NCBI RefSeq assembly: GCF_900109225.1 | Contig: NZ_FNZK01000011.1 | Span: 62,001-126,000, forward strand | Length of the DNA: 64,000 nucleotides | DNA from: Propionispira arboris | Lineage (GTDB): Bacteria > Bacillota > Negativicutes > Selenomonadales > Selenomonadaceae | Reading direction: 5' to 3' | In this document: positions 58,196 through 61,115 of the stretch, one piece after another | Layout of the letters: each line of letters opens with the position of its first letter | Position numbering within the stretch: position 1 is the first letter of the stretch | Translations under genes and position numbers: made by a program | Notes under the pieces: generated by a model | Database searches by the model: none | Told to the model about the DNA's origin: nothing | The model's input: the letters and a program-made list of their open reading frames with translations, nothing else

Positions 58196-58426
58196 TTGAA
58201 CAAAATACAACAATATATGATTGAAGCAATTATAGCGGCATTTATGCTGCTATTTTTATTTTGGTCGATAGGATACTGGGCAAATGCTCTGTTTAATACA
58301 AAATTTGATCTAAAAAGTTGTTGGGATGGATTTACAACGCTTGGAGGGGCGGGATTGCTGGCTGTTCTTAAATATATTATGGACAGTTGGAAAAATAGTG
58401 GAGATGGAGATAAACCATATCAATAA
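58196..58426 (+). CDS. holin candidate
   Basis: 76 residues from TTG 58196 (AAGGAG upstream). Two hydrophobic helices (about 8-30 and 47-62) and a charged C-terminus. Size, topology and position before the endolysin fit a holin. Confidence 0.65.
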   Translation: MNKIQQYMIEAIIAAFMLLFLFWSIGYWANALFNTKFDLKSCWDGFTTLGGAGLLAVLKYIMDSWKNSGDGDKPYQ

Positions 58427-58444
58427 AGAAATGAGGTGAGTTAC

Positions 58445-58579
58445 ATGATGAAATATATAGGCTTTTACTTTTTGGCGTTAGGTCGGGCAGCTGAAGGGGA
58501 AATAGCTATTAACTGGCCCAATGTAGTATTTTTCGCAATAGCACTGGCAATTGGTTTCATTGCAGGGAAAATAGTTTAA
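58445..58579 (+). CDS. small membrane protein in the lysis cassette
   Basis: 44 residues from ATG 58445 (GAGGTGAG upstream). One helix at the C-terminus (VVFFAIALAIGFIAG) and a short hydrophobic N-terminus. Could be a second holin component or antiholin. Confidence 0.5.
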   Translation: MMKYIGFYFLALGRAAEGEIAINWPNVVFFAIALAIGFIAGKIV

Positions 58580-58626: not shown

Positions 58627-58845
58627 ATGAAACGAGTTACCTTAATTCAATCAGAAAGATGGGGTGTTTTTGTTCTTCCCGATAATTTGGAATTCGATCA
58701 AGTAACTGGGCTATATGCCGATGATTGCACATTGAGTAAATATAATTACAGGGTGCTGGATGATAACAAGTCCGTAGACATTGAATCCTATCATCCATGG
58801 AAAAATGAAGTTATTACAGCAGATGTAAAGGACGTGGAAGAATGA
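58627..58845 (+). CDS. hypothetical protein upstream of the endolysin
   Basis: 72 residues, soluble and beta-rich (VTLIQSERWGVFVLPDN), no family recognised. Overlaps the endolysin by ATGA, so the two are coupled. Confidence 0.55.
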   Translation: MKRVTLIQSERWGVFVLPDNLEFDQVTGLYADDCTLSKYNYRVLDDNKSVDIESYHPWKNEVITADVKDVEE

Positions 58846-59447
58846 AAGGTATTGACGTAAGTTATTGTCAGGACGGTATGGATTTTCAGGCAGCGGCAAA
58901 TGCAGGGATAGAATTTACGATTATTCGTTTAGGTCGTAGAACGGATGGCGGCTGGTGCGTTTTAGATACCAGCTTTATTCAAAACATTAATGGCGCAATA
59001 GCCGCAGGCATGAAAGTTGGCGTGTATTTTTACACCAAAGCCACTAGTGAAGAAGAAGCCGTCCAAGATGCTGTATTTATCAAGGAAATGCTTACGGAAT
59101 ATTGTCAGGGAACAAACTTAGAAATGGGGATTTGGTACGATGTCGAGGACAATGACACGATCGGGAGTTGCGACAAAGAAACAATCACAGGAATTTGCAG
59201 TAAATTCCTGTGTACTATGAATGATACTGGCTATAAAAACACTGGTATTTATGCAGGTTATGAATGGCTAACAAACAAAATTGATACGTATGCTCTTGCT
59301 GATTACGTGCCATACTGGACAGCTCAATATAATTCGCAGGATGATTTTTCGGCAGAAAATCCCACGAAGAAAGTAAAGATTTGGCAGCATACCAATCATC
59401 TTGCTGATGATTTACCGTATGACGGAAATGTTTCATACGACGAATAA
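58842..59447 (+). CDS. GH25 endolysin (lysozyme)
   Basis: 201 residues, a single GH25 muramidase domain: GIDVSYCQDGMDF at the N-terminus (first catalytic-site aspartate), GVYFYTKA strand, WYDVEDND with the catalytic acids (about residue 102). It cuts the MurNAc-GlcNAc bond. No signal peptide and no separate cell-wall domain, so release depends on the holin. Confidence 0.9.
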   Translation: MKGIDVSYCQDGMDFQAAANAGIEFTIIRLGRRTDGGWCVLDTSFIQNINGAIAAGMKVGVYFYTKATSEEEAVQDAVFIKEMLTEYCQGTNLEMGIWYDVEDNDTIGSCDKETITGICSKFLCTMNDTGYKNTGIYAGYEWLTNKIDTYALADYVPYWTAQYNSQDDFSAENPTKKVKIWQHTNHLADDLPYDGNVSYDE

Positions 59448-59553: not shown

Positions 59554-59799
59554 ATGACAGAAGCAGTTCAAAACGATATCGCGAAAATGGAGGCAGCTAT
59601 TGCACAAATGCAAGCCGCCGGTGCAGATCTATTTTCAGAAGAAATCAAAAATCTTCAGGTAAAAATAGCAAATGCACAAGCGGAAGCAGAAAACACAATT
59701 TCTACAGTAGAACAAAGTATTGTGCAGAAATATGGCACAGGTGCAGCGCATGTGGCCGAAATCGTATTATTAGGTACAATCTTGTACAAATTATTTTAA
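59554..59799 (+). CDS. small coiled-coil protein with C-terminal membrane helix
   Basis: 81 residues from ATG 59554 (AAAGGAGA upstream). Helical coiled-coil with AKMEAAIAQMQAAG and a short C-terminal hydrophobic helix (AEIVLLGTILYKLF). Likely part of the lysis cassette; role unknown. Confidence 0.6.
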   Translation: MTEAVQNDIAKMEAAIAQMQAAGADLFSEEIKNLQVKIANAQAEAENTISTVEQSIVQKYGTGAAHVAEIVLLGTILYKLF

Positions 59800-59811
59800 G
59801 GGGTGGAAAAA

Positions 59812-60240
59812 TTGAATGAACAAACTAAAAAGAATCTTTATATTGCCGGTGGCATTTGTCTTATTGTTGCTCTTGCCTGCATCGCATGGTTTTTGTTCCG
59901 AGACGTACCAAATAACCGAGGAACAGCTAACGACGTTACAGGACAACTTGACACAGCTCAAACAGAACAACAGCAAGCTGCAGACACTCTTAAGTCAGTC
60001 CAATCAGGACTTAACGACAGCGAGCGAACAGTCGACAATATTGACAAGTCAAACCGAGATGCTCAAGCAACAACTAACCGAATCACAGAATCAAATACAA
60101 ACATTGCAAACGCAGTTAGCGACGCTCAAAGTTCAAACAGCAGCAGCGCAGCAATCCTTGCAGATAGCCAATCAAGAATTACAGAATGCGAATCAATCCT
60201 TCAAGAAATACGAGCAGGAGCAGGAAAAGCTGCAGAGTAA
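59812..60240 (+). CDS. inner-membrane spanin-like protein (overlaps next gene in another frame)
   Basis: 142 residues from TTG 59812; the GTG at 59803 is inside the Shine-Dalgarno AAGGGGTGG. N-terminal cytosolic tip, one membrane helix (about 8-27), then a long helical periplasmic domain with repeated heptad-like segments ending RITECESILQEIRAG. This is the topology of an Rz-type i-spanin. 425 of its bases also encode the following protein in the +1 frame. Confidence 0.65.
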   Translation: MNEQTKKNLYIAGGICLIVALACIAWFLFRDVPNNRGTANDVTGQLDTAQTEQQQAADTLKSVQSGLNDSERTVDNIDKSNRDAQATTNRITESNTNIANAVSDAQSSNSSSAAILADSQSRITECESILQEIRAGAGKAAE

Positions 60241-60310
60241 ATTAAAAACACAAAAGAATATATGGGAAGCTATAGCGGCACTATCATTGGGATATGCTGT
60301 AGCAAAGTAA
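59816..60310 (+). CDS. exported coiled-coil protein, spanin partner-like (embedded +1 frame)
   Basis: 164 residues from ATG 59816, four bases after the start of the i-spanin-like gene and served by the same Shine-Dalgarno. N-terminal signal sequence (KLKRIFILP, then a leucine run and SHG), followed by leucine/glutamine-rich heptads over about 100 residues and a short hydrophobic tail. A cysteine soon after the core (HGFCSE) is only a poor lipobox. It resembles an o-spanin-like partner embedded as Rz1 is in Rz, but unusually long. Confidence 0.6.
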   Translation: MNKLKRIFILPVAFVLLLLLPASHGFCSETYQITEEQLTTLQDNLTQLKQNNSKLQTLLSQSNQDLTTASEQSTILTSQTEMLKQQLTESQNQIQTLQTQLATLKVQTAAAQQSLQIANQELQNANQSFKKYEQEQEKLQSKLKTQKNIWEAIAALSLGYAVAK

Positions 60311-60352
60311 AAATAAAAGCTGACGTTATGATGGCGTCAGCTTTTATTTTTA
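60310..60352 (+). terminator. terminator of the lysis operon
   Basis: A 16-bp perfect stem, AAAATAAAAGCTGACG with CGTCAGCTTTTATTTT, 9-base loop, T-rich 3' arm. Confidence 0.9.
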
Positions 60353-60398
60353 CTTTTAAATAGAACGTATGTTTCGAAAAACAAAGGAGAATATAAAA

Positions 60399-61115
60399 AT
60401 GAACAATTATTTAAATAAGATTTTATGCGGAGATTCTTTGGAAATTTTACGGCAATTGCCGGATAATTATGTCGATGCCGTAATAACGGACCCGCCTTAT
60501 TCATCGGGTGGAATGACAGCGGCAGAACGCAGCAAAGATCCAACAGAGAAGTATGAACAGTCTAAACTGGTGCATCGACCAACATTCTATGGAGATACGA
60601 AAGATCAACGGAGCTGGCTGCATTGGTGCAATTTATGGATTTCAGAATGTCATCGTATTTTGAAACCAAGCGGGTATTTTTTAATGTTTACGGATTGGCG
60701 TCAACTGCCAGCGTCGACTGATGCTGTGCAAATTGGTGAATTAATTTGGCGCGGTATAGTTGCCTGGGATAAAGGCGGTGGCAGCCGGGCACCGCACAAA
60801 GGCTATTTTCGCCACCAATGTGAATATATTGTATGGGCTACAAAAGGGAAATGCCGGAAAAATGAACATGCGGGTCCTTTTCCTGGTTGCTATAAATTTC
60901 CGGTAAAACAGAGTGACAAATTTCATTTGACCGGAAAACCAAGCGATCTCATGAAGGAGCTAGTGCAAATCGTACCTGAAGGCAGCATTGTTTTAGATCC
61001 GTTTGCAGGATCGGGTACTACTTGCGTTGCGGCAAAGAAAATGAAACGTCAATTCATTGGGATTGAAAAAGATGAAGGGTATGCAGAAATTGCTTTGAAA
61101 AGAATAGATCAATGA
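60399..61115 (+). CDS. phage DNA methyltransferase (DPPY, N6-adenine type likely)
   Basis: 238 residues from ATG 60399 (AAAGGAGA upstream; the earlier in-frame ATG 60369 lacks one). Catalytic motif IV TDPPYSSGG near residue 30 comes before the AdoMet-binding motif I LDPFAGSGTTC near residue 205, the beta order of small methyltransferases. DPPY suggests adenine-N6. No restriction partner is beside it, so it is probably solitary, protecting phage DNA or altering regulation. Confidence 0.88.
   Translation: MNNYLNKILCGDSLEILRQLPDNYVDAVITDPPYSSGGMTAAERSKDPTEKYEQSKLVHRPTFYGDTKDQRSWLHWCNLWISECHRILKPSGYFLMFTDWRQLPASTDAVQIGELIWRGIVAWDKGGGSRAPHKGYFRHQCEYIVWATKGKCRKNEHAGPFPGCYKFPVKQSDKFHLTGKPSDLMKELVQIVPEGSIVLDPFAGSGTTCVAAKKMKRQFIGIEKDEGYAEIALKRIDQ

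Follow-up and report, generated by a model that had tools for sequence, protein, structure and literature searches.

The locus at 59812-60310 raises the question of whether two reading frames that share nearly all of their DNA are both genes and, if they are, whether their products could form a complex with which a phage breaches the outer membrane of a diderm Firmicute. The window (the whole stretch of DNA that was analysed, 64,000 nucleotides) contains the two frames, referred to as A and B, within the following set of features.

59812-60240, + strand: gene A, 142 amino acids, TTG start; N-terminal membrane segment and a helical part assigned to the periplasm, i-spanin-like
59816-60310, + strand: gene B, 164 amino acids, ATG start, in the +1 frame of A; proposed outer-membrane partner
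59798-59806, + strand: Shine-Dalgarno-like sequence AAGGGGTGG, placed to serve both TTG 59812 and ATG 59816
59836-59898, + strand: membrane segment of A (residues 9-29)
59816-59896, + strand: predicted signal peptide of B, cleavage near GFC/SE as read by eye from the alignment
59918-60259, + strand: helical rod of B, a single helix in the AlphaFold2 monomer model
60260-60307, + strand: C-terminal hydrophobic tail of B, 16 residues, past the stop codon of A
58842-59447, + strand: endolysin of glycoside hydrolase family 25 (GH25), same cassette
58196-58579, + strand: two small hydrophobic proteins (58196-58426 and 58436-58579), candidate holins, judged by size and position alone
60307-60353, + strand: terminator-like hairpin directly 3' of B

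The start codons of A and B, 4 nt apart, begin frames that stay open for 142 and 164 codons, respectively, and overlap from 59816 to 60240, i.e., over 425 nt or 99% of A; the membrane segment of A and the signal peptide of B are read from common T-rich DNA. A second copy of the pair is present in the same genome (B 83% identical). Just upstream of the pair, 59554-59799 encodes an 81-aa protein with a charged helical part and a C-terminal hydrophobic segment, perhaps another lysis component, which was matched in only one (L006) of five related loci (36%). The hairpin is directly followed by a gene resembling, by its own sequence, a DNA methyltransferase (60369-61115).

Relatives were collected in steps. 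Searches with B yielded six viral contigs, including the phage of the window itself (100%), a match in Propionispira raffinosivorans and matches in 26 of 189 family genomes, the weakest of which were unrelated coiled coils. The order search covered the same 189 genomes, in which the strong hits of the A and B profiles largely coincide in place. The set of pairs placed beside the window comprised 24 of 37 loci; left out were the repeats L001, L003, L005, L010 and L036, the fragments L021, L026, L028 and L035 and the unrelated loci L030-L033. Within the class Negativicutes, the A profile matched 107 of 380 genomes at E≤1e-3 (some of the weak matches being other coiled coils) and 84 of 380 at E≤1e-7. 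Among the 398 genomes of a phylum sample there were four matches at E≤1e-7, all within its 14 in-class genomes, and none in the 384 genomes from outside the class. Across the phylum the B profile picked up numerous long coiled coils some 400 aa in length, so that the outside-class count rests on A. The profile searches covered the phylum; phages of other hosts were covered by tblastn with the two window proteins against 50,697 phage records, neither of which was matched. From the class, 80 places outside the family were fetched, covering hits with E up to about 4e-7; one (L177, a host peptidase) was dropped throughout, which left 79 loci. The alignments A4 and A5 have 79 rows each, further near-identical or odd loci having been removed.

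In all 79 class loci the +1 frame of A carries a B-like protein, including L181 and L190 (internal stop) and L167 (remnant). Over 100 loci, the stop codon of B lies a median of 64 nt after that of A (range -8 to 133, two values negative). In the 24 relatives collected with B, the start of A precedes that of B by 4 nt in 18 cases and by 46 nt in one, and follows it by 2 nt in five. The 4-nt and 2-nt spacings recur in the class loci, many of which have no such ATG/GTG/TTG pair or offer several options; L187 has no clear start codon in either frame. With one or the other of these two spacings in 23 of 24 relatives, the proposal that one Shine-Dalgarno sequence serves both starts is supported. One genome (G269) has four copies of the pair (L111, L113, L114, L116), which suggests that it holds several related prophages.

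A first-pass annotation of the window had read two coding frames overlapping by 425 bases, and this was borne out. Shuffling the codons of B in the window among synonymous positions put a mean of 4.2 stops into A and left it open in 0.3% of 2000 trials; none of 2000 trials left it open when shuffling followed the codon usage of the window. In the window and the 24 relatives that B retrieved, all 25 copies of A are open against 0.41 expected, the largest single value being 13%. A is likewise open in the 79 class loci against 3.8 expected, a sample found through A and thus not unbiased, in which the span covers only part of L181 and L190. In the reciprocal test the codons of A were shuffled and the B frame was followed between the beginning of the A match and the stop of A; it was stop-free in 65 of the 79 class loci against 8.1 expected. 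The stop lay at index 1 of the A match in nine of the other 14 and at index 7 in two; ten of these eleven early stops precede the first start codon of B and the eleventh belongs to L167. B stops 8 nt short of the end of A in L151 and L153, and L190 is the fourteenth case; nearly all of these exceptions sit at the edges.

The pattern of substitutions was determined in 21 close, non-overlapping pairs of loci with the tail of B as the control; the endolysin and the methylase had no match in the five related loci (L004-L007, L009), so the neighbouring genes were unusable for this purpose. L167, L171, L181 and L190 were left out of the pairs and the alignments. The first, second and third positions of B differed in 305, 367 and 500 of 2607 codons in the overlap, and in 74, 59 and 169 of 488 codons in the tail. 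The third position of B, which is the first of A, is thus slowed in the overlap relative to the tail (Fisher 3.7e-13), and the second position of B, the third of A, exceeds the first in the overlap only (Fisher 0.036); in both comparisons the loci are related and not fully independent. In codon usage A scored -0.105, the overlapping part of B -0.215 and the other genes of the window -0.061 to 0.077, which suggests A as the more typical frame, a signal too weak to date the overprinting.

Stops in one frame of homologous loci, which had been named as the observation that would count against the pair, were looked for and are rare. An internal stop in B with A intact was present in two of 79 class loci, L181 and L190, whose genomes are both in many contigs; L190 is a true interruption, and the stop in L181 lies upstream of the span tested by shuffling. 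B is a 5'-truncated remnant in one class locus (L167). A contains one stop in the family fragment L026 and none within the matched part of the fragments L021, L028 and L035. Two further family loci are damaged in both frames, L059 by a frame switch mid-gene and L064 as a 5'-truncated, degraded remnant. The interruptions are rare decay, not a pattern. A residual explanation would be that one frame codes and the other is open by chance. Base composition does lower the number of stops, with A open in 39% of the shuffles at L168 and 88% at the partial L181; against this stand the shuffle tests in both directions and the substitution pattern, by which this reading was rejected, and the presence of B in loci retrieved with nothing but the A profile. 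Its probability is negligible. Judged by these sequence comparisons, both frames look coding: in related loci of Negativicutes they stay open and are under joint constraint.

The product of A has an uncharged core with a median length of 20 residues, followed by a median of 99 residues (79 class loci), and the core is flanked by a mean of 2.3 K/R before and 1.7 after it, a weak orientation bias. An i-spanin is defined by an N-terminal transmembrane segment, N-in, and a periplasmic C-terminal part, and the i-spanin layout first proposed for A agrees with these data. Weak marks of A are a W/Y-x-L motif after the segment (32/79) and a Cys within the last 45 residues (44/79). The PHROG catalogue already lists A as phrog_18860, a phage protein family without assigned function, which matches it in 38 of 79 loci (best E 3e-52); weaker matches were obtained to the Rz-like spanin PHROGs phrog_739 (12/79), phrog_214 (11/79) and phrog_89 (8/79).

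For B, a signal peptide and a long coiled coil had been proposed, and the proposal stood in the form of a signal peptide and a long helix: the AlphaFold2 monomer model (12-row alignment) shows one helix over residues 35-163 (129 residues, mean pLDDT 84.5), which continues into the hydrophobic tail. Only two of 79 B proteins have a strict lipobox in their first 50 residues, each time inside the hydrophobic stretch, and a looser pattern was found in 11 of 79. A Cys is located near the end of the hydrophobic signal region in 58 of 79 proteins, preceded often by F, T, I, L, Y or M; homologues lacking the Cys have SFA/SE or SYA/AT, similar to signal peptidase I sites, at the same place in the alignment. 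The export signal looks like the signal-peptidase-I type. By the geometry of the frames, every Cys codon of B corresponds in A to NTG, a codon for Leu, Met or Val, so that such a Cys can be a by-product of the membrane segment of A. The widest PHROG match of B was phrog_6631 (31/79, best E 9.4e-6), none being comparable to phrog_18860 of A. B also weakly matches Rz-like spanin PHROGs, alongside tape-measure families, so that coiled-coil composition explains part of these matches.

The tail of B contains a median of 12 uninterrupted non-polar residues, versus 20 in the segment of A; ahead of it lies a basic region (residues -30 to -18, mean net charge +2.7), and in 65 of 79 B proteins it is followed by a terminal K or R. 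In L024 (same as L191, near-identical to L192) and in L138 the tail is replaced by a sequence that by eye is beta-like. B of L024 ends in Phe; many outer-membrane proteins do so. The model of L191 has two short strands, at block-mean pLDDT 47-48, in a beta end whose block means are 41-48. These ends are a hint, and no more, that the C-terminus of B faces the outer membrane. With B of L024 as query five loci were found in viral contigs, and with B of L138 no relative was found there.

Two-component spanin genes are linked to endolysin and holin genes, and such linkage was observed here, with GH25 in the window and upstream matches in the class loci. The upstream proteins scanned numbered 73, namely the endolysin of the window and the longest ORF (≥100 aa, ending ≤1.1 kb upstream) for 72 of 75 class loci. 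They gave 51 hydrolase-family matches (Amidase_3 17, Amidase_2 17, GH25 11, VgrG3-like_C 4, Glucosaminidase 1, a GH-like family 1) and nine to Phage_holin_4_1, all counted as matches, not proteins, so that a protein may count twice; VgrG3-like_C, presumably lysozyme-like, was counted as a peptidoglycan hydrolase. The two small hydrophobic proteins of the window had no holin family match. The endolysin of the window had no match in the five related loci, which keep the A/B pair, and the cassette thus seems to swap endolysins around the pair. An outer membrane in the host, which the first-pass annotation had implied, is in agreement with an Omp85 match in the same genome (E 1.2e-44) and with the class Negativicutes (nearest named relative Propionispira). 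LptD was not found in the host genome with a model that was positive in only two of 14 controls.

In the sections of Kongari 2018 available to us, spanin pairs are embedded, overlapped or separated and have a lipoprotein o-spanin. Like Rz/Rz1 of lambda, A and B are two envelope proteins in overlapping frames of a lysis cassette, the second in the +1 frame; Rz1, however, is a lipoprotein o-spanin inside Rz, whereas B is larger than A, starts with A, outlasts it and has no lipobox. For embedded o-spanins, the start falls at 0.4-0.5 of the i-spanin length in about 70% of cases (Kongari 2018, same sections); for B it falls at 0.01 of A. In the overlapped two-component spanins (P2 type) the second gene extends past the end of the first, as in A/B, but here the overlap amounts to 99% of A and B is without a lipobox. 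The unimolecular spanin gp11 of T1 likewise combines an N-terminal export signal and a C-terminal hydrophobic segment in one protein; B differs in having no lipoprotein signal, in its long helix and in being accompanied by A. B alone thus fits neither the definition of an o-spanin (outer-membrane lipoprotein signal with lipobox) nor that of a unimolecular spanin (lipobox and C-terminal transmembrane domain). Of the spanin-like pair in the first-pass annotation, the part concerning A was upheld; B as a canonical lipoprotein o-spanin was rejected on account of the lipobox counts and the hydrophobic tail. A fits the i-spanin definition and B fails that of the o-spanin; on this evidence the pair may work like a spanin but is not classed as a two-component spanin.

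On balance we favour, with some reserve, the reading that A and B form a two-component, spanin-like complex, the last unit of a prophage lysis cassette, in which B has no lipid anchor. The N-terminal segment of A would anchor it in the inner membrane, with the helical part lying in the periplasm, and B would be exported, probably cut by signal peptidase I, and form a long rod that pairs with A. B would reach the outer membrane through its C-terminus, as a short helix in most loci and in a beta-like form in at least two lineages. Once the endolysin has cut the peptidoglycan, the complex would disrupt or fuse the membranes; the coupled starts would yield both proteins together. In favour of this reading stand the constraint on both frames, the pairing across the class, the lysis context, the weak Rz-like matches of A, the Omp85 of the host, the single long helix of B and the beta-like ends. 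Against it weigh the lack of a strict lipobox in nearly all B proteins, the short tail behind a basic region, the weak and partly compositional spanin matches, the low pLDDT of the beta end in L191, and the negative searches of the phage records and for LptD.

Three other readings of the pair were weighed against the spanin-like complex. B might be a type I inner-membrane protein, with its C-terminal tail passing through that membrane; A and B would then make up a rod complex of the inner membrane, and pushing or a further protein would breach the outer one. The K or R after the tail is in line with this, and type I proteins are named as possible i-spanins in the available sections of Kongari 2018; yet the shortness of the tail and the basic region before it are unfavourable for a C-in segment, and the beta-like ends in two lineages also argue against it, which makes this reading unlikely. 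That an unusual lipobox (GxC) makes B a lipoprotein, the pair then being an ordinary overlapped two-component spanin, we regard as distinctly improbable: the position of the Cys and a new lipobox, AWAC, reported in the abstract of Kongari 2018 would suit it, but the residue before the Cys, the signal peptidase I-like sites of the Cys-less homologues and the possible origin of the Cys in the membrane segment of A do not. The pair might instead have an envelope function apart from lysis. Membrane-anchored phage proteins can act, e.g., in superinfection exclusion, and A and B could have such a role; this is, however, very improbable given the hydrolase and holin families frequent just upstream and the restriction of A, among the genomes sampled, to a class that has an outer membrane.

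With an overlap of some 100-150 codons that is deeply conserved in two frames, A and B offer material for work on overprinting. Gene callers are biased against overlaps (Kongari 2018, sections available), so only one of the two genes would be expected to be kept in annotation. A 2025 survey, in the part accessible to us, reports spanins to be absent from Gram-positive phages. How phages of Negativicutes breach the outer membrane seems to be undescribed in the literature searched on spanins with Negativicutes, Veillonella, Selenomonas or diderm Firmicutes, as represented mostly by titles and the beginnings of abstracts. Other anchors, e.g., an outer-membrane protein as o-spanin, are named as a possibility in the available sections of Kongari 2018 and not considered there. 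A broader proposal, tentative and somewhat doubtful, is that phages of diderm Firmicutes may have a membrane-spanning lysis complex of their own, whose outer subunit would be a rod processed by signal peptidase I, not a lipoprotein, with an exchangeable C-terminal anchor (short helix or beta-hairpin), encoded with its inner-membrane partner in one doubly coding stretch conserved across a class. If the spanin-like reading of A and B is true, the pair would exemplify a spanin whose outer-membrane subunit has no lipid anchor and would supply the missing outer-membrane step for phages of Negativicutes.
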